From Romanomermis culicivorax (lineage: Eukaryota > Nematoda > Enoplea > Mermithida > Mermithidae): a DNA stretch of 64,000 nt. The stretch is from the NCBI GenBank assembly GCA_963922205.1, contig CAWUHX010000320.1:186001-250000 (forward strand). Reading direction: 5' to 3'. Positions 9,001 to 56,640 of the stretch are shown here, one piece after another. Under the pieces are notes generated by a model. The model saw nothing but the letters and a program-made list of their open reading frames with translations, was not told the DNA's origin and ran no database searches. Within the stretch, counting starts at the first letter, position 1. Every line of letters starts with the position of its first letter. Position numbers and translations under genes: made by a program.

Positions 9001-12000
9001 ATCCTTGGTCAATTCTAATTGTAGTTTTTTCGATAAATTTCAATAGTTTCTCACCCTATTCTTCAAATTCAAATTATTTAGCTTCCTGAACATCAACATC
9101 GTTTATATTCTGAAAAAATAATTATTTAACGATTAACGATGTCGTGAGAAAAATTATAGATGTTTGGATTGACGTGAACTAGAGCAATTATGCCTAAATA
9201 TTGCAAAACAAAAATAGTAAAATATTTCTAATAAAATGAGCGTTGAAAATTATTGAATGCTCATTCAAAATGACTGCCTTTACGCAGTGTCTCTGCAATC
9301 AACAGGAAGGTAGTGTTAAGTGACGAATCAAAGCTCTTTCCTTAAATTTCTGAGCTCATCTATCAAAAAACACGAGGAAAAATGCATGTCATCAGATTCT
9401 TTCTTCTGCAAAATTGGAAGTCGATAGTCGAACATGTGCTAAGAGCATTGGGTGTATTCACCTCGTTCTAGCACCAGCACCGTTTCTGGGGGGGGGGGGG
9501 GGAATTCAGACTAAGATGTTACCAAAGGCTGTGTTTCGGAATACTCCAATATTCTTGCATTCCAGAGTAATTTCCGATAATTTTAAAATTCAACGTTTCC
9601 AACAATTTTAGCCTTTTGATGTGTAGAACTTGCAGGAATCTATTACGCTACTAAGAAACAGTGTTGGGAGTCTCGAGTTGATCAATTTTATCGCCCTCGA
9701 TTTATCTGTCCACGTATGATCATAACTTTACTAGTTACTTGGGATGATTTCTAATGAATTTCGCCGAAAATGCGTATAGAATCATAGCAAGTCAAAATTA
9801 TTACGAAAAAATTTTCAGGATTGATTCTTTGATATAAATGTTTGACAATATGTGCAGCTAACTATGCAGCATTTGCTAGCAGCACTTGAAGCTGAAATTG
9901 ATAAAATTCTTTATACAATAATAGCCAATTTAGGAAATTCATTTGATTTATCTACGACCAATCCAAAAACATCAATTTTGAAGTATTCGATAGGCAGAGC
10001 ATAAACATGTCGATGGTTTCTTTATTCCTTGAGTATTTTTTGAAACCTCAGCATTCAACAGCAGTTTTGCTCAGAAGCTCTGGAATAAACTGGTAAGTCT
10101 TCTCACATCTAGGATAGGTAGCATGGATAGATTTTCATGTTTCGGCTACGTGCTGCTTTTTGAAACTTCGTAATTTTGAATTCGGAATACAGAAAATTGG
10201 AGATTTTTTTTGGGGGGTTGGGAAGCAATGACTGTAATTTCTGCCCGGAAGTATAGCCAATATAATTGTCAATGATTGAATGAAAAATAATAGAACTAAA
10301 GGCATTGTTTGCATTTTTGATTCTACAATCGCTTCAGTTGCATAATTCTCGTTTCAAACAAATTTTTGCCAGTATCATGTATTTGATGCTGCTGATTTTT
10401 TTGAATGATTCTGGAATCATCAGCTGAAATTTTGAACGTCGGTGGATTATCATTTGAAGCATCATCGTTGAAGAATTGGTAAAAAATGATGCGAAAAGTC
10501 TACACCTGAAAACAACGCATCTCAATTAGACAAAAATTAACGCGAAAGATTGCACTGAAATTGAAAATTCAGATTGCAAGCATCTATTGACTTCCTCAAT
10601 AACTCATCCATTGTAACTGAAAAATAACTAGAAAAAATAGGTTTCTTCTATGACTCTATGACATTGTTGTGCAGAAATGAGAAAATTGATCATCATGATA
10701 ACGGTTTGACTCCTTCGAACTCAATATACGGCATCAACGCCAACATCATGAGCGTGATGCAGAGCAGACAACCAAACCGAATCAAAATTCAATCAAGTAA
10801 TGTAACATATAGTAATCTGAATAGAAATTAATTTCAAATGTAATCTACTAACTAACTTTACATGGGCTTTTATGGGCTTTGACCTCAGGCCCGGCCCGGT
10901 TCACCATTTTTTTGTGGCCAATCCCAGTTTGGCCTGTTCAGGGGCCTGGCTGAGTAAGGTCGGGCCCGGCAGTGGACCTCCCATGCACGTCCTTAGTTTA
11001 CATATATAATCATTTCGTACCATACTGGCACTTGTGGCCTTCAAAATCCAAGCCGCAGTCGCACTTGGGTCCATCGTCTGTATTGTAACACTGAGCCTTG
11101 TTCGAACATCGGAATTGTTCGCAATGATCATCGTCGCTATCCCGGACGCCCCTCACGTCCAAAACGAGCGGCGCCGTTACGCCGTGCGGCAACGTCCTAT
11201 AGACCAAATTGCGTACAGAACCGGCCAATCGGGCGACGTTCCGTACGCCTTTGTAGGACAATTTGGCGTCGGGCCAATTGGGCGGTAGACCGCCCAAAAA
11301 GACGTCGCTATTCGTTTCGTAATTGCCGAAAACGAAATCTTGTTGGCCCAGGGTCAAAAAAGTGCTCAATCGGCCGTCGACGGTCAATTTGATTTTCTCC
11401 CAAAATTGAAAAAGTTCAACTTTGCGCCACGTGTTGTCGGAGAAACGGGACGTTTGATCGGCGTTTATTTCCAAGATGTTCGGATGATCGGCTATGGGCG
11501 GTCGACGTGCATTTTGGGCATACCTATTTATGCAACAATGAGCATTATAGTGTCTCAAATAATAAAGACAATCAAAAATTGAATTTTCAGGTTGATATTT
11601 TCAAATATAACATGTTTTTCATAAATCGCTTCTAAATTTAAAAAAATGCAAAAATCAGAAAAATACTTTTGTCAATGCTTTAGTCTGGCGTTTCCTGTTG
11701 GTATTTAATGGCACTGCTTTACAGTGTGCCATGAGCAGCCAAAAGTTTTTGAACATGGGTATCAATGGTCTAGAAAAATGTTGTGCACTGAAAATCCTGG
11801 CTTTTAACGGTATACAGCTCTTGCTAAAAACGCCAAGCGGATTATGGAATCACTAACCAATGGATGAAATGTTCCTCGATTCGCTGGCATGTTCAATATA
11901 CATGATGTTTTTCCTATGATTTTGGCTTCCCTTTATCATGAAGGAATTCCTATTTTTTTCTACAGTATAAAGCCTCTCGCTCTGTGAAAATTTTGTGTCA

Positions 12001-45719: not shown

Positions 45720-45882
45720 ATGGCGGAATTGAAATCCGAAATTACTTTGGATACTAAACCAAAACCTGTCCGGTCCGAAGATGAATTGGGTCGAAAATTC
45801 GACCGTTGTCTAGCCGACGGTCTCATAAAAGTTGGCGCCGGTTTAGGAATCGGTATCATTTTCTCTGTCGTATTATTCAAAC
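45720..45882 (+). CDS. MICOS10: MICOS10 exon 1
   Basis: 54 codons plus one base, donor AAAC/GTAAGT. It encodes the N-terminal extension and first glycine-ladder membrane segment, ending at VVLFK. Confidence 0.94.
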
Positions 45883-48321
45883 GTAAGTTTTGCTAGTACT
45901 AGTTGATATTCTCAATGATCTGATCTGGCGAAATAATAAAAATGACAAATTCTTATAAGTCCGACGATGGTACAAATTTCTTTTTCATCAAAATCGAAAT
46001 TTTGATATAGTTCTTAATTGTTTCACAATTTCCAAAAATGTATCACTGAAACACCAATTTTAAAAAATAGTTATATACAAATTCGAAATTTATCCTCAAA
46101 TTTTCGCGGATAAATTGTTTTCTATAGCTTTGCCTTTGTAGTCTAATTTTTACAAGTGGTTATACATCTAAATATGACAAAAATTGGTACCCAATATCAG
46201 TAGTGTATCCAAGATATTTCCAAAGGAGCATGCGGATTCACAATTTTATCAAAATACCACAAATTGATACAGTAAATATACCGGGTTAACAAACTCAATA
46301 TTCATAATGGCACTAAAAGTTGTAACAGGCATAATATGGCATTTCTTGATGTTCAAATCACAGAACCAATGCGGCAATTACAAAAAAATAAATGTTAACT
46401 GTCATCAAAATCGTTTAAACAAAAGTTGCTCTCAGAAAACTGTCAACGGTTAGTTGAGAACATGCACAATTTTCATAATATGTTCAGTAAGAAATCGTAA
46501 ACATATGAAACAGTACTCTTTCTTTCCCCAAGGCTTCTTATTTAAAAACCAATTAAGAAAAACCGAATAGAAATTTATATGTTTGATTTATTTCCTCACA
46601 TGATCGATTTTTCTAGGACGATCGTGGCCCGTATTTTTCGGCACAGGGACCGGTTTGGGTATGAGCCTTTCGAATTGTCAGCACGATTTACAAGGCCCTT
46701 ACAAAAGTCATTGTGACAAGCGAAAGGTATGTTTTAAAATTCATGTTTACAAGTTACGACTGAAAGTGACTACTACAATGAGACAAAAGTGTTCAAATTG
46801 ACTTATTGCCGTGCTTGTAATCTGGTGTGAGCTTTTGACTCTAAATCCGAGAAGCTTTCGCCATCTAGATCTAGATTCTAGAGATGGAACGAATCCACTT
46901 TTTTGACTACTACATCGAACCCGGATTCAGAAAACTACAATCGTCGGATCGGTATCCTTAACAAAAATTCCGGCCGGATCCGGATCCTGCGTATAGCATA
47001 ATGTCAATGAATAATCGTATAAGTTTTGATATTCGAAATCAAGTTGTACAAATTCATATTTTTCTTATTGCAACAATTAATATAATAATTAGTGATGTAC
47101 GTCGGACATCCGGACGGATATTTTGAAAAACGGATATCCGGATATATCCGCATATTTTGACTGTTCAAAAAATAAGTAAAAGTTACTGAGAAGTTGGGTT
47201 CTATATGATTACTCAAAGTTTCAGCAAGAAAACAGTAAAAGGTTCGAATTTACGTGTATATACTTTTTAGAAATGAAAATTTATGGAATTTTTTTTTATG
47301 TGAAAATAAATTTGAAAAATAGGGTGTAGCCAGGAGTCGAACCTGGGTTACCAGCATTCCGGGCTAAAAACACGGATATCCGGATATGAAAATTTCTCCG
47401 GGGCACATCACTAATAATAATCATTAAAATGTGAAGCAAGAATTAAAAATCTTTATACCAGGTTTGACATTAACAAATAATACGAGAAAATTGACATTTT
47501 TGACCGTTTTTTGTTCAGAAATAACATTGTTCGAGTTTTTCCTGTCCAAAACCACTAGGAACCCTGTAGCAATTATATGACTAACCATATGACTGGCAAA
47601 TCATGTGGGGTGATCGCCGAATGGATAGCCACATGACCGACGATTTCTGAGGTGATTCTACGGTCCTCCCCTATTCTCCCATCCCTATCGTATTCGTTCT
47701 TTGGTAAATTAAATTTCAATCGCAACTTTCTCATTTATATTATTGGTAATCCAAGGGAATACAGTTTCATAATTTTATTTTTTAAAATCAAAGGTACAGT
47801 GAACCGATTAATGTAAATTCAACACGGAAAATTTCGCAAGCTTATTACTGTAGTCATGAACATTTTTCGTCGATTGGCGAAGAAAGGATTAACTAGTAAT
47901 TCGATATCCTAGTTAAAAAATAATCGATATTTCTCAAGTAGCCAGATGCTGACACAGATCCATACCAACCCTCAAGTTTTTATTGTTATGATTTTGGCCT
48001 TCTCATCGTCCTTGCGAAATTTGGCGTTATCACTGTAGTAGGTATAGAGTTTTCCATTCCGTTAAAACTGAACATACGAAATTCTTTGACTGTCGCAGCC
48101 ACTACCACTTCGCTATAACTTAGTCTGCTTTAAATTTATTTTCTTTTCGAACTTGTTTATATTTTAAAGGACAGTATACCATTGAAACTTGAGTTGTAAC
48201 TTTAAGTTTTCCATATTTACAAAGTCACGTAAAATTTTTCTCTTTTTAGTGCCCAGTTACCGCCACGCCTGCGGCCGCTACTACTATTGGCGATGGTTCA
48301 ACGAAACCTTGTTGTCATTAG
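45720..48321 (+). CDS. MICOS10: MICOS complex subunit MIC10 (three exons)
   Basis: MIC10 is a small inner-mitochondrial-membrane protein that forms a hairpin, oligomerises through glycine motifs and bends the membrane at cristae junctions. Exons are 45720-45882, 46617-46726 and 48250-48321, with GT/AG sites and phases 1+2 and 0. The predicted product has 114 residues. The conserved block ELGRKFDRCLADGLIKVGAG is followed by two membrane segments with glycine ladders (GAGLGIGIIFSVVLF and GTGTGLGMSLSNCQHDLQGPY), matching human MICOS10 almost position by position. The protein is longer than the 78-residue human form. It has an extra N-terminal stretch before ELGRK and a C-terminal tail rich in Cys, Thr and Ala, ending KPCCH. 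The ATG at 45720 is the first in frame and gives MAELKSEITL. Confidence 0.95.
46617..46726 (+). CDS. MICOS10: MICOS10 exon 2
   Basis: Acceptor TTTTCTAG and donor AAAG/GTATGT. It completes the Arg codon split from exon 1 and encodes RSWPVFFGTGTGLGMSLSNC, the second membrane segment, then QHDLQGPYKSHCDKRK. Confidence 0.94.
47090..47413. mobile_element. hAT-type MITE with TAGTGATGT termini and 8-bp target duplication, in MICOS10 intron 2
   Basis: Ends TAGTGATGTAC (47090) and, inverted, GGCACATCACTA (to 47413) are flanked by ATAATAAT on both sides (47082-47089 and 47414-47421). The terminal TAGTG fits the hAT consensus. The interior has repeated ATCCGGATATCCGGATAT words near both ends. At about 47329-47372 is a tRNA-like 3' half on the minus strand (T-arm CCAGG-TTCGACT-CCTGG plus acceptor strand). 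324 bp, no transposase. Confidence 0.88.
48250..48321 (+). CDS. MICOS10: MICOS10 exon 3 with stop codon
   Basis: Acceptor CTCTTTTTAG, 24 codons in phase 0, starting CPVTATPAAATTIGDG and ending KPCCH before TAG. This tail has no counterpart in human MICOS10, so the exon call rests on splice site, phase and stop. An alternative last exon is possible. Confidence 0.75.
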   Translation, partial: CPVTATPAAATTIGDGSTKPCCH

Positions 48322-50046: not shown

Positions 50047-50692
50047 TGTCACGTGTATGACAGGTTTATCTTGGGAGAGCTGGAGAGGTTTGGGTATCTC
50101 ATCAGGTAATACCGTGTTTTAGACGTCACATTGATGGTGAACCATATCAGATTGATCCTATTACAGTGAGTAATAGGCTGTGACTCCTGATGGATACTGG
50201 CATTTTCCCCAGGCTTCCCAAGTTGGCGTTGGGGCCTAACCTGGCAAATAGTGGCTATAGAGAGGTCTATAGTTGGTTCTCTGGAGTTGTCCTTGGGGTT
50301 TTGCTGTAGGGTAACGGACAACGCTGCCAGGCTAGGTGCGACAACCCCCGAGTCCTACTCAGTGAGAGTGGGGACAGGGTCACCCGTAAAATGACCTAAA
50401 TTATGGGACCCGATTATGAACCAGACAGCCCCTTTTTGCCCGAACCTGAGAGGTGGAGGCCCTACTTATCTGTGGAGACCTTGGGAAACCGACTTAGCCT
50501 CGCCATGACACGTAAATGGGTAAACGCGTTGTCATCGTAACCATCGCCAAACACCATTTTCGAAAAATAATGCTCGACCGGGATTCGAACCCGGATCTCG
50601 TTGACTATAGTGCAGCGTTCTACCGATTGAACTACCGAGCCGGTGTTGCGACTGGTACGAAGGGGTGATGTACGGACGTGCGACACGTGACA
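50047..50692 (-). mobile_element. short LTR-derived element carrying a tRNA-like sequence
   Basis: Bounded by TGTCACGTG (50047) and CACGTGACA (to 50692), the same termini as the LTR-like unit. Its left 0.4 kb is homologous in inverted orientation to the 3' third of that unit. Compare GTAGGGTAACGGACAACGCTGC with GTAGAATAATGGACAATGCGGC near 61640, and GGGACCCGATT..GAACC with 61736. The other end instead contains the tRNA-like sequence. No target duplication was found. Confidence 0.65.
50571..50641 (-). tRNA. tRNA-like sequence (probably a tRNA pseudogene/derived promoter)
   Basis: On the minus strand: acceptor GGCTCGG pairing 6 of 7 with TCGAGCA, D-stem GTTC/GAAC, and a perfect T-arm CCGGG-TTCGAAT-CCCGG. 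An A-box-like TAGTTCAATCGG and a B-box GGTTCGAATCC are present. The anticodon arm (GCTGCACTATAGTCAAC) does not form a proper 5-bp stem with a 7-base loop, so identity cannot be assigned. It sits inside a repeat. Confidence 0.5.
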
Positions 50693-51550
50693 TAGTTAAT
50701 TGTCTCACATGATTTCAATTTCTAATACTTCTTGTGTTCCTTTGTTGTGTTACGTTTTTTAGTTGTTTCATTTTGTATTTGCTTCATTATTTGTCATTCG
50801 TTTTTTCTTCTAGTCGCCTCTGATCAGGGTAAAAATGATTTAAAATTCGAAAATATTCTGGACTGATGTTTGTGTTTTTGGAGGACTTTTCATCAGAGTA
50901 AAAGTCGTGTGTATTCAAAGCAATTAGTAGTTTTTTCGAACCAATGACTAACTCATTTCTGCGATGATGCAACAGGTTCAATCTCACTCATTTGCATAAA
51001 AATTTTTGACTGGAAAATTCGAATTCTGATTTGTGTAAAATAACGCTTAAGTAGGATATATTTCGCTATTTGTGGGTGACACGTGACTGAACTGTTGGTT
51101 TAGGCTGCTAGAATTCCTCTCCAGCAAAGTTTTGCTCAATATCCCAAGGCCATGGAAAAAATATCACCCACTACCAGAAATTCCATAGAATGATTATCAG
51201 TCGTTCGTTAGCTGTGAATTTACTTTACCGAAACAATTTAAACGGCAAGATCAACAAACAACGACACATTATAAACAATCAAGCAAAAATAAATCACAAA
51301 CATTGTCGGGAGAAAAAATGCTGATTATTATCGAACAGAAAAACAATATTATTCCAAAACCACCTGACTGAAAATTTAACGGCGATTTTTTTGATCGTTC
51401 TAGTAAAGCGAAAAAAGTGAAGGTGTTGTAAACGCTGAATTATTTAGAACCGGTAAATTTTCGCAAATAGTAGGACGACGTTTCTTCGAACCAGTAGTCA
51501 AATTTCACGGATGATCGAACGACCCGACGTGTAGGTCATTTGGAGCGGCG

Positions 51551-51615
51551 TTAAGGGATCGGCGAATGGGTCAACATGTTCAAGGCCATGTAAGGAATGC
51601 TGGCCGGCATAAATC
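51551..51615 (-). CDS. SIGMAR1: SIGMAR1 exon 4 with early stop
   Basis: Acceptor CATTTTTTAG, then GFMPASIPYMALNMLTHSPIP and TAA at 51553-51551. The first dozen residues fit human VIPSTLAFALAD, after which similarity ends. The overlapping frame (from about 51579 to a stop at about 51507) reads DPFADPLTPLQMTYTSGRSI, faintly like the human tail (DFLTLFYTLRSYARGL). A frameshift or a lineage-specific end are both possible. Confidence 0.8.
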
Positions 51616-54600
51616 CTAAAAAATGACGAAAATTTTGATTTTTGAATCAATAATTTCAAAGTATTCCGCTGTTTCCAATAAACTTGAAGCAAATCTTTTG
51701 TCAGGATCGCATTTTTCGACTCGATTTATTCAGAAATTCATCGAAAAATCTAACCTCGTCCGTAGCATAAAGCCCAAGTATCCTCGGCCATTTCGACGAC
51801 GGATCCTTCGAACATGGCAAAACGTACGTGATCGCCGGGCCGGAAATTTTCTTTGGTCAACGAAGCGCCGTCTTTCCAACGTTGAACGTTGCCCACTAAA
51901 ACGGAGCACGATTGGTTCATCCAATGGAAACCTATGAGAGGAAAATCTTTAGGATGTATAAAATGCGAATTTTCAAATTAAACAGAAATATCTTTAGCTA
52001 ATCTGGACGAAACTATTTAGTGTCATCCGGACAAAAACATTTTCGGTATGGGAAGTATAACACCTCCAACCAAATGTAGGACTTCTGGAAAAATGGTCCG
52101 AGAAGGTCGATTTAGTGTAAAGTGGATTGCATATCAATGCGTATATTTCAAATTTCTCATCATAGACCGAATAGGCATATGAGACGAAAAGAATTCAGCC
52201 GAGCACAGAAACATTGCGAAAGTGAAGAATTCTTGCATGATTCCTTCGTCACTGAATCCAGATTACCTGCTTACAAGTTGAAATCAGCATGATTTTTGCT
52301 GGTTTGTCCGAACTTATGAAAAACAGGTTACTTTTCATAAATTTTTGAAAAATTCGAGGTGATTAATTGTTTTTCCAAGTGGCAGGTTAACGGCAATAAA
52401 GGAAACCTTAGGGCGAATGAAATGACGTGATCAGTTGGAGGTTATAATGCGTTATGTCGGTCAACCCTCGCGGTACTACCCAATCAAAATCATGGATTTG
52501 CCCCTACATAAATTATATAACTCGTTGGAGTAATGGTGCCATATCTCTCAAAGATTTTTTTGCAACTATTCAACTTCTGATTTCAAAATTAGCGGAAATT
52601 TTAAACGGTCAGACCACGATTTCATAAAAATGTGAAAAAAAGGTAAGAAAACTCTGAATAGTGCATCACATGAAAGTTCCAGATTTTCCGAGTTTTTTGC
52701 GTGTCTTCGAAATCGTTCAAATATTTGACGCTTCTTCCAAAAAAGATTTGGATAAGGTAACTAAGATTTCCATAATTTCTTACAGTATACACTTATTTTA
52801 TTTTGTACAATATTCGGAGATAGTAAAATTTTTCCACTAAATCGGATAGGCGTATGCATGGCCGTAGCCAGGAATTTTTTTCGGGGGGGGGGGGGGGGGG
52901 CACATGTTTAGTTTTGACCTAAGTAAATTCAGTTGCAAAACGGTTGTCTTATCTGGAAAATTAGGCCATAGTAGATGAGATAGAGCAATTCGACGATGAT
53001 CTTTATCAGCAAAAATGTCAATGACGGTAGGGTACTTAGGAAAATTCAAAGGTAGGGTACTTAGGAAAATTTCGTCTTCTTTCCCATTTCGGGGGGGGGG
53101 GGGCAGTGCCCCCCCGCCCCCCCCCCTGGCTACGGGCCTGGGCGTATGTTATTAGTTCTCATGGAAAATGACATCTCCTCCTCCCATTCATGAAACTGAA
53201 ACGTGGAAGATTGAAAAAAGATTCTTGGAATTTCAAGTTTCATCTTCATCGTTTTAATGTCTGAGTTTCTTCGACTTTTCCTATGTGCATTTAGCAGAAG
53301 ACCCCAAGGTCGAAAATTTAGATAGAAGTAAAATCGTAAATTGGAAGGGTAGTAACTTGACATGACAAATGTATATGAATGAAATATGAAATACCGTGAA
53401 TTTTTTTCGCTCCCTACTTCATTGCGGTGGGGGTGGTGTGTGTACTTTCACCACAAAATTGTTCTCACTAAATGAACAATGCCCCTGCTTTATACTTTTT
53501 ACGGTCAAAAAACCTTTACTATTTCGACCCCATTTTCCAGCTCACCATCATGCAACATGGATGTACCAATTATATGCAGAAAACGGTCAGACTTTGAAGA
53601 TTGTCGTGTCAATTGATTCCTGCATATTTCAAAAATCGGGCACAACATACTTTTGAAGTTATTTGAAGCAGCATCATCAGGAGTATGAGCTTATTTCATC
53701 ACTGATAAGGGTTTTGACGGTGCTTTTAATTGGAAGTGCTGATGCCGAATGTGGCTTTAGTATTATCAATCACATTTGATTATGAATCACCAGTTTGAAA
53801 CCAGGTACCACTCCTGATCCGCGTCAACGGACCTCGCATGTCTCAACTCATAGTAGGAAAGTATGCCACAGCTTGGGTGGAGAAATATAGCCATATGCGC
53901 ACAGGCGACCCAACGCAGAAGCGGTGAAAAAGGAAAGAAGAGGAAAGTTTGAAAAGCAAAAGATGTGTCAAAATTGTTGCATTATCGAGTAACAATGTAG
54001 CTGGAAAAGGTGCTCTTCAACAATAACCCACTGGTATCATAAATATAGCAAATGCTGTATTGAAATATGTGCAATGATAATCAATACATTTCCGAAAAAT
54101 TTGAATTTTTGGGCTTCTCTTGATTGCCATCACTAACATTAGTTTCAGTTTAACCAGCAATACATCTACGGCATGCAAAGAATCAATCAAATTCGAGCTT
54201 CACGGGAAAAATATAAATTGTTCCAATATAACCCTGCTAATAGCAGGTTATTTTCATATTTTTACCCAACTTTTACGTTTACCTCATCCATCTTCTGTAA
54301 TCTCGATATAGGTAAAATTATGGGTTATTTTTCTCTACCGACGATTTTACCCGTCTTCAACTCATCTTATCCGCGATTATACCTGATTTTTACTCAGCCT
54401 TAACCTAGGATTCTACCCGAGATTTTACTCGACTTTTATTTGCCTACGATTTTGCCCGCCATTTTACTTTTACTCTTACGCACATTTAACCCACTTTCTG
54501 TAATTTGGGCCTTAAATACATATACACATACCCATGTGACCAGACGCCCGCAAAGGCGTCCCTATAAGCGCCAGATATTCCGTAAGCGAAACGTGCATCA

Positions 54601-54926
54601 AATAAATTTTCGCCTGAAGATTGCCGCCGAACGTGAACCAATTAGGATCGGTTGTCGGAATGATATGTTTGGAAAAACGTACGCGCAGTTCGCTGAGTAT
54701 GCTCGTCAATGCACCCGAAGGATGTTGACCTAAATGGTGAAAATTAGAAAAATAGAACGCCATAGACTGTATGTTTTCAACAATTTCTACCCGAATATCT
54801 GCCGGCGATTTTTCTAATTTCTGGAACTGGCAACGTGTACCGTTTGTTGTTGATCAAATAATGAATTGCGCTGGCTGCAGCGCACACTAGAACCGCCGTG
54901 CGGAAAGTTTTCATCATGCTCCGCAT
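51551..54926 (-). CDS. SIGMAR1: sigma-1 receptor / ERG2-family protein (four exons)
   Basis: Sigma-1 receptors are ER membrane proteins related to fungal sterol C8-C7 isomerase ERG2, with one N-terminal membrane helix and a cupin-like ligand-binding barrel. Exons are 54926-54791, 54729-54532, 51931-51755 and 51615-51551. Every junction has GT/AG and phase 1+2. The 191-residue product has a helix (FRTAVLVCAAASAIHYLI), then EIRKIAGRYSG (human EIAQLARQYAG), the ligand-pocket segment YLMHVSLTEYLALIGTPL (human CLLHASLSEYVLLFGTAL), GHMGFHW and DTWALCYGRGFMPASIP (human NTWMVEYGRGVIPSTLA). The tail stops about 30 residues earlier than in human (223 residues). Both pocket acids, human Asp126 and Glu172, align with Cys here. 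Family identity is secure; binding or isomerase activity is not. Confidence 0.93.
51755..51931 (-). CDS. SIGMAR1: SIGMAR1 exon 3: second half of the barrel
   Basis: Acceptor CTCATAG, donor CGAG/GTTAGA, 177 bases. It encodes GFHWMNQSCSVLVGNVQRWK (human [20 protein letters not shown]), FRPGDHV (human FYPGETV) and VVEMAEDTWALCYGR. The Cys residues at the positions of human Asp126 and Glu172 are both in this exon, encoded TGC and TGC. Confidence 0.93.
52857..53140. mobile_element. hAT-type MITE (CATGGCCGTAGCCAGG termini) with 8-bp target duplication
   Basis: Ends CATGGCCGTAGCCAGG and, inverted, CAGGCCCGTAGCCAGG, flanked by GGCGTATG on both sides (52849-52856 and 53141-53148). It has long G runs near both ends and an internal repeated GTAGGGTACTTAGGAAAATT. 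It is in SIGMAR1 intron 2. 284 bp, no transposase. Confidence 0.9.
53292..53960 (+). pseudogene. hAT-like transposase C-terminal remnant, copy 2
   Basis: Homologous to 42330-42960 throughout (CCCCAAGGTCGAAAA, ATGAACAATGCCCCTGCTTT, GGAAGTGCTGATGCCGAATG). The translated motif is again GSADAECGFSIIN. Internal stops differ from copy 1, so both decayed independently. It lies on the strand opposite SIGMAR1, in its intron 2. Confidence 0.55.
54532..54729 (-). CDS. SIGMAR1: SIGMAR1 exon 2: first half of the ligand-binding barrel
   Basis: Acceptor CCATTTAG, donor CATGG/GTATGT, 198 bases. It encodes LTSILSELRVRFSKHIIP, then WFTFGGN and YLMHVSLTEYLALIG. The Glu-Tyr pair of the human pocket (Glu102, Tyr103) is kept. 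Confidence 0.93.
54791..54926 (-). CDS. SIGMAR1: SIGMAR1 exon 1: N-terminal membrane helix
   Basis: 45 codons plus one base, donor TCGG/GTAGAA. Starts MRSMMKTFRTAVLVCAAASA and ends EIRKIAGRYS. The intron to exon 2 is only 61 bp, so this short exon is easy to miss. Confidence 0.88.
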
Positions 54927-55419
54927 TTTGGGCCAATTCAAGTTGGATAGGAATATATATATATATGTATATAATTAAGCTGGAATAAAAATCGGATACT
55001 CAGCAAGTTAACGCCAGATTAGAAGGAAAACTGTGCACATCAGGAAAAGAGGTAAAAATTATTTTTCCCCATTTTCTGCAAGTCGTTTTTAAACTATAAA
55101 ATGCTCATAAACGCTTTCATTTAAGTTTTTTTGAACTTTTTCAAACATGCTAATATCTTTAGAGCCCTTAATTCATTTAAGTTAAAATAAACATGAAATC
55201 TCAGTTTGAAGTCAAATTTATATAAGCATAGCGGAAAAAATTTTCCAAACTATCCAAGGGCATGATGATTTTGAATTACATGAGAAATTGAACATTAAGG
55301 CTTCTGTGATGATAAGAGAAAGCTCATAAAACATATTCTTTCCGGTGCAAATGGTATTGACTTCTTGAACGCTGAAAAGATCAATTTTTTGAACATTTAT
55401 TCCGAGACTTAAATTCGAA

Positions 55420-56640
55420 TTTTTTGTTCGAAAATCGTGATTTCTAGGTATTTATCAGTCGGAAAATTTTAAATTAAGTATTTATTCGTAAAGTTTCATG
55501 AATTTATCAGAAAATTTAAGAGTAGGAAAAGTAAAAATATCCGAAAACGACTTTTACGAAGCTTTTGAAATACCGCTTCAAAAAGTTGGAAAATTTTGTG
55601 TATCTATTTCTTCAAAAAATGTGTCAAAGAAAAAATGTGAATTTTCATCAAACATCAAGATAAAATAGTGCAGATTCTCTATTAAAACATTACATAATAC
55701 GCTCAAGATGATAAGTGAAGGCAAGCATGCTGAAAGCCGCGTCTGAGCTATAGCTTGTAATAAAGAATAATGATTATTCAACTTATAACCCGGACCGGTA
55801 AATTTTGACATTTAGACAGTGTTTTTTTATACTAAAACATGGTTGCCAATGGGCACAAACTTTTTGTGTGGTCAAAGACTAAATTGCCCTGATTTTCAGA
55901 CACTTCAGGGCAGTGTTCTTTTTGCGCGAGCTGTTTTGCACGGTGCAAAAAAATTACCAAAAAAGTTTTGCACGCCAAAAAATTTTTTTGTACTACAAAT
56001 AAATCTTTTTTCCACGAATTTTTTTAACAAATAAAGAGTTCAAATTTTTTTCCACACGTGGAAAGTTTTTTGGAAAAAAATCTTAAAAATCAGATATGAA
56101 TTTTGTGTTCATAAATCGTAATTTCTAGAAATTTATTTATCATTCGAAAAAATTTAAAACCATTAATTTGTTCGTAACGTTTCATAAATTTGGCCGAAAA
56201 GCTATGAGTCCAAAGTCAGAAGCGTAGAAATTTTCCAAAAATACTTCCATGAAGCTTTCGAATTCAATTTATGTTAAGAAAGTAACAAGCGCTTGAAAAC
56301 GTTTAAGTGCAGTGCAAATGTGGAAAAAAAACAGTGACCCCCCCAATCACAGGTATGATATCTACAAACATAGAATTTAGCCACTAATCCAAGCAGAAAT
56401 AATGTATAACTGAAAATATAAGTCGTCTTTACTGCAAAAATGATTTTCTTTTCATTCAAGTAAATTCTAAAAAAAATTTGGAAAATTTCCCCCCCCCTTT
56501 TAAAAGTCCTGGATACGGGTATGCATAAACTAACTGAAATATAAGTCGTCTTTACTGCAAAAATGATTTTCTTTTTATTCAGTAAATTCTAAAAATTTCG
56601 GAAAATCCCCCCTCTCATTTGAAAATCCTGGATACGGGTA
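55420..56640. repeat. local duplications downstream of SIGMAR1's 5' end
   Basis: 55430-55590 and 56095-56265 are diverged copies (AATCGTGATTTCTAGGTATT/AATCGTAATTTCTAGAAATT, TTTCAT.AATTT, ACGAAGCTTT/ATGAAGCTTT). 56400-56524 and 56528-56641 are a tandem duplication (ATATAAGTCGTCTTTACTGC ... TCCTGGATACGGGTATG). The intervening 55840-56040 and 56780-56890 contain repeated TGGCACAAA/TTTGTGCCA words also seen at 60250-60320. Confidence 0.7.

Follow-up and report, generated by a model that had tools for sequence, protein, structure and literature searches.

In a 64,000-nucleotide stretch of the Romanomermis culicivorax genome (contig CAWUHX010000320.1, positions 186,001 to 250,000; hereafter the window), a spliced gene of the SIGMAR1/ERG2 family encodes cysteines at the two positions that are occupied in the human sigma-1 receptor by the acids Asp126 and Glu172. 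To judge from the aligned sequences, this cysteine pair is not peculiar to the Romanomermis genome but is a trait common to the nematode homologs that we found. Each of the two acids is required for high-affinity ligand binding in the sigma-1 receptor (PMC8293995, PMC6017133). We favour, with a confidence a little above even, the interpretation that a nematode form of the receptor has exchanged its acids for a cross-strand disulfide and that its classical amine binding is poor or lost.

A first-pass annotation of the segment 51755-51931 (minus strand) had proposed that both acids became Cys, each encoded by TGC, and that the equivalents of Glu102-Tyr103 were kept. Both proposals were borne out by alignment. 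The segment corresponds to exactly one exon, exon 3 of the gene. The annotation had also described the flanks as free of gaps; the surroundings of both cysteines do align in this way, but the window protein has one extra residue between the two sites, away from both cysteines. Joining exons 1, 2 and 3 in phase gave a stop-free sequence of 171 residues, which matched the Pfam family ERG2_Sigma1R (PF04622) with an E-value of 9.9e-27 and a score of 94.1 bits (cut-off 21); exon 3 on its own scored 32.9 bits. The joined protein also matched four distinct human/Xenopus sigma-1 receptor sequences of the PDB (E 9.3e-21 to 1.8e-23). Identity to the homolog P0001 was 50% for exon 1 (residues 5-52 of P0001) and 54% for exon 2.

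We aligned the window protein with the human receptor and 57 distinct homologs obtained from three protein searches, and all column counts given here refer to this alignment. The human-126 column contains Cys in 37 rows. All 36 of these rows that have a residue in the human-172 column also contain Cys there, P0053 being the sole Cys126 row with a gap at this position. Apart from the window itself, these 37 rows are made up of 16 proteins from 15 named species and a further 20 proteins. The pair was present in every named nematode, 15 species altogether: Trichinella sp. T9, Soboliphyme baturini, Trichuris suis, Trichuris trichiura, Mesorhabditis belari, Mesorhabditis spiculigera, Necator americanus, Angiostrongylus costaricensis, Dictyocaulus viviparus, Nippostrongylus brasiliensis, Auanema sp., Steinernema glaseri, Diploscapter pachys, Panagrolaimus sp. 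and Thelazia callipaeda. Three of them were looked up as Nematoda, and we take the remaining ones to be nematodes as well. The 22 other rows (human, 14 vertebrate proteins from 12 named species, a protein of the sponge Corticium and six others) contain Asp126 in 21 cases, P0056 having Phe, and Glu172 in each of the 21 with a residue at that position, P0040 having a gap. No intermediate with one Cys and one acid was detected among the aligned rows. Inspection of these two columns in relatives, as suggested by the first-pass annotation, revealed a shared trait and so widens the scope of the observation beyond the window.

A tree was built without columns 126 and 172, using 53 rows (35 Cys and 18 other) in which the window was represented by the 228-residue protein described below; P0012, P0040 and P0053 (fragments), P0014 and P0015 (near copies) and the human sequence were left out. 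A single branch (support 100/100, length 1.09) separated the 35 Cys rows from all others. This result indicates that the Cys rows form one clade, for which one paired switch suffices. As the change from Glu to Cys takes three base changes and that from Asp to Cys two, the switch was no single accident. Within the Cys clade, where the median pairwise identity is 36%, the invariant columns number only 13 of the 184 well-filled ones and include both cysteines, in agreement with the earlier suggestion of selection rather than decay. Cys occurs in any other column in at most 4 of the 37 Cys-type rows, and the chance that two random conserved Cys columns among 184 would be this very pair is 1 in 16,836. 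Conservation of the pair is far above chance. The switch is no younger than the nematode stem and may have occurred earlier; named arthropods, tardigrades, priapulids and nematomorphs are missing from the sample, as is any sequence of Caenorhabditis elegans.

A wrong gene model, a pseudogene or an alignment error would be the most trivial explanation of the cysteines, and exon 4 of the window copy could be read in its favour. The middle part of this exon is out of frame with respect to both ends, and the main frame contains stops, so that the window copy as assembled would not yield a full-length protein. However, contig C285 holds a near-identical copy of the gene, aligned in two blocks with 97.5% and 99.7% identity that cover most of 51000-55500. 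Its exon 4 (G000:C285:356862-357037, 176 nucleotides) is open in one frame, and its four exons give an intact protein of 228 residues that scores 122 bits against ERG2_Sigma1R (cut-off 21). Between the two copies, exons 1 and 2 show no difference at all, and exon 3 a single base change that leaves its amino acids unaltered. Since exons 1-3 of C285 encode the same protein as those of the window, the cysteines are beyond doubt. The homologs from the 15 named nematode species concur, and P0001-P0004 are proteins of 222-231 residues on contigs of 973-1139 bases, a size that would fit spliced transcripts. We therefore give next to no credence to an artefact. The two copies are probably two haplotypes, exon 4 of the window reflecting base-calling or assembly errors, or a broken allele.

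The two copies also differ in intron 2, where about 284 bases (window about 52857-53140) are missing from C285. The aligned blocks overlap by 8 bases, GGCGTATG, at both sides of this insert, and its two ends, GGCCGTAGCCAGG and CCTGGCTACGGGCC, are close to being inverted repeats of each other. The insert resembles a small non-autonomous DNA transposon.

We searched the whole 359-megabase assembly with the ERG2_Sigma1R profile and obtained six exon matches in three places, namely the window, C285 and contig C187. The latter (G000:C187:442758-443825) carries a divergent second SIGMAR1-like gene that reads HWMNQSC and TWMLCRGSG and shares both the Cys pair and the NQSC sequon. Its exon starts after an AG at the point that matches exon 3 of the window, and its closest fetched relative is P0010 (43% identity over 91 residues). 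The first-pass annotation had raised the prospect of a second, acid-retaining paralog; a second gene was thus found, but with both cysteines. No acid-retaining paralog was detected in the assembly by the profile search, which might miss a copy that has diverged very far or is split into many pieces. Using the acid-type Xenopus receptor as query, with E up to 1, we again obtained six matches, located only in the window, C285 and C187, and all three places have the Cys pair. A control profile search of 14 well-known genomes gave no match.

To place the two cysteines in the fold we used structure modelling. A first model, based on five rows, was poor (predicted local distance difference test score, pLDDT, 43.4) and was set aside. 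The second, for a close relative and based on 53 rows (without P0012, P0015, P0040 and P0053), was good and confident. The modelled fold is that of the human/Xenopus sigma-1 receptor, with the N-terminal membrane helix, cupin barrel and C-terminal two-helix lid of the ERG2_Sigma1R architecture, and both cysteines fall within strands. Judged from published contacts of the human receptor (PMC10094450), residue 126 would lie opposite residue 172 on neighbouring antiparallel strands. The register that we assign to the two cysteines is carried over from the E123:R175 backbone bonds of the human protein and would hold by analogy. The human receptor is a type II protein of the endoplasmic reticulum (ER) with a luminal ligand domain (PMC8561001), and the worm protein would, by the same analogy, be luminal. 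Positions facing each other on antiparallel strands, together with an ER lumen that is oxidising in human cells, make a disulfide the most likely state of the pair.

These observations suggest the following scheme. The gene product is the nematode form of the sigma-1 receptor, which would span the membrane once and have a cupin barrel with a lid of two helices. In the nematode stem or earlier, the two buried amine-holding carboxylates were swapped for two cysteines, which most likely form a cross-strand disulfide between strands beta5 and beta10. This putative Cys126-Cys172 bond would replace the amine-binding carboxylates and would staple the barrel at the former ligand site, across a seam seen to part when the human receptor is simulated. 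A chaperone or scaffold role would be retained. Classical sigma amines would be bound poorly or not at all; with the ligand-holding acids gone, the nematode form should not bind them in the known way, and a loss of amine binding is what its sequence predicts.

Other positions changed together with the acids. E123N, D126C, I128V, Q135R, V153R and E172C are the changes that distinguish the two groups and are fixed to 95% or more in the Cys clade. Arg135 and Arg153 became fixed along with the Cys pair; residue 135 of the human receptor sits at the polar mouth of the barrel (PMC10094450), so that the charge of the pocket may be reversed. The clade keeps E102 (37/37) and R175 (36/36), and position 123 is Asn in all 37 rows. 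When the human receptor was simulated, R175 exchanged E123 for E102 as its salt-bridge partner in one of three monomers, and beta5 and beta10 then parted there (PMC10094450). A covalent link between these strands could take over the role of the lost E123-R175 bridge, which would account for three of the switches at once. The N-x-S/T sequon that starts at position 123 is found in every Cys-type row. That this sequon, with Asn123 as a potential N-glycosylation site, is tied to the switch was ruled out, because it also occurs alongside the acids in P0032 and in the sponge protein P0046. Its presence would fit a luminal placement but proves nothing.

The geometry that supports a disulfide staple would be identical for a redox switch, in which the strained cross-strand bond opens reversibly, the barrel changing with the redox state of the ER, or the thiols act chemically on a client or a small molecule. 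The retention of E102 and R175 next to an invariably replaced E123 gives the seam the look of a unit rewired as a whole. However, neither a redox partner nor a redox activity has been described, and by sequence a switch is indistinguishable from a structural disulfide; we consider it rather unlikely. We propose as a tentative possibility, though a doubtful one, a redox latch made out of the drug and steroid site, in which a strained Cys126-Cys172 disulfide replaces both the acids and the E123-R175 bridge, the protein then acting as a chaperone gated by ER redox instead of an amine receptor and the agonist effects seen in C. elegans arising through other targets. Alternatively, the pocket may have been re-purposed: amine or sterol binding would be lost, another lipid held, and the cysteines kept as free thiols for packing. 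Many pocket positions indeed changed together, and two arginines are nearly fixed (position 135 in 36 of 37 rows, position 153 in all). Packing would nevertheless hardly keep only Cys at two positions of such a divergent clade, where an occasional Ala, Val or Ser would be expected, and this makes free thiols in a re-purposed pocket unlikely.

Cys126 and Cys172 could also bind a metal together with side chains close by, for instance the new His120, but such a site appears quite improbable. Tyr120 is replaced by His in 32 of the 37 rows, many cupins bind a metal in the barrel, and cupins solved with Zn, Ca or Cu were among the lower structural matches. However, His120 is missing from 5 of the 37 rows and His154 from 17, so that no such third ligand is constant, and a metal site was for this reason set aside as first choice. 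Paired cysteines in the ER lumen are, moreover, usually oxidised. A disulfide would thus be preferred over a metal site.

Several points weigh against the disulfide staple. A beta-bulge in either strand, from 123 to 126 or from 172 to 175, would break the register argument. The pocket has also seen other substitutions: 29 of the 37 rows have L for W89, 30 have A for L105 and 32 have H for Y120, and I124 has given way to a polar residue in all 37. A pocket altered in this way may serve another ligand while the thiols stay free. Crystallography and an engineered disulfide favour ligand entry between the lid helices rather than through an opening of the barrel (PMC8913746), and a staple between beta5 and beta10 may therefore not matter for ligand entry. 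The topology of the receptor has long been disputed, and an orientation opposite to the type II one was predicted in the report of the crystal structure (PMC8561001). A sigma-1 agonist had effects on treated worms (PMC6468724), and the worm protein may have kept some residual agonist binding. Finally, our homolog searches depended on shared exact five-residue words, the third scoring the best 7,997 candidates by shared words; as most of the queries were Cys-type proteins, acid-type nematode proteins were less likely to be listed, although acid-type proteins of other animals did turn up in the third search.

Compared with the human and Xenopus SIGMAR1 structures (PDB 5HK1, 7W2B), the nematode form has the same modelled fold, Pfam family, Glu102, Arg175 and G-R-G after the second site. 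It differs by Cys in place of both acids, by E123N, Q135R and V153R, and by a hydrophobic pocket that is altered in large part. It therefore lacks Asp126 and Glu172, the pair that marks a pharmacological sigma-1 receptor. The Pfam family is also that of the yeast C-8 sterol isomerase ERG2, which needs its acid pair for isomerase activity; this pair, too, is absent from the nematode form, both residues being Cys. PDB 7W2H, titled 'double cysteine variant', is presumably the engineered Xenopus variant C179/C203, and its chain retains the pocket Asp and Glu in our alignment. C179/C203 resembles the present case as a disulfide within a sigma-1 receptor that hinders ligand binding, but it is man-made and lies between the lid helices (PMC8913746).

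The features of the gene are collected below.

Features of the SIGMAR1/ERG2-family gene in the window, with positions numbered from the first base of the window.
Feature	Position	Strand	Basis
Exon 1: start codon, membrane-anchor helix and initial part of the next domain	54791..54926	-	ATG open frame, in-phase GT donor
Exon 2: ends in HVSLTEYLALIGTPLRASGHMG; carries the Glu102-Tyr103 equivalents	54532..54729	-	AG/GT borders, in phase
Exon 3: FHWMNQSC...DTWALCYGRG, both cysteines	51755..51931	-	AG/GT borders; 177 nucleotides
TGC codon, Cys120 of the joined protein (human Asp126)	51906..51908	-	Alignment to solved receptors
TGC codon, Cys167 of the joined protein (human Glu172)	51765..51767	-	Alignment to solved receptors
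Asn-Gln-Ser-Cys, N-x-S/T sequon abutting the first Cys; Asn corresponds to human Glu123	51906..51917	-	37/37 Cys-type rows
Exon 4: lid helices, C-terminus; 176 nucleotides, equal in length to the C285 copy	51440..51615	-	Homology to lid helices

Elsewhere in the window, a transfer RNA gene for Ile with the anticodon TAT (50570-50641, minus strand) lies between exon 4 and a DUF543 gene. Two exons of the latter, at 45720-45893 and 46607-46732 (plus strand), match DUF543 (PF04418), which we take to be the Mic10/MINOS1 family, a mitochondrial cristae protein. At 11010-11600 (minus strand), an open frame of 196 residues looks by eye like laminin-G and EGF domains of a neurexin-type protein.

Diploscapter and the strongyles, all of which have the Cys pair, are relatives of C. 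elegans and, by analogy with them, the C. elegans protein W08F4.3 would be expected to carry it too. Our searches of open-licence papers brought up no report of the pair; one may exist elsewhere. W08F4.3 has been described as the Sig-1R/ERG2 ortholog (PMC6468724, PMC2478713) of an animal unable to make cholesterol (PMC2478713). Effects of ANAVEX2-73 in C. elegans have been interpreted as Sig-1R activation (PMC6468724), and dipentylammonium has been used in worms as a sigma-1 ligand, according to a title cited in PMC12190457. A 2025 paper takes conservation of the C. elegans Sig-1R as its premise, with a tree restricted to Deuterostomia (PMC12398221). If C. elegans has the Cys pair, the effects of ANAVEX2-73 and dipentylammonium would need another target or another binding mode. 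The pair calls experiments with sigma-1 drugs in worms into question. The function of the sigma-1 receptor and its natural ligand are long-standing questions, and an animal group that keeps the protein without the ligand-holding acids would be a case in which nature itself has uncoupled 'chaperone' from 'ligand binding'.
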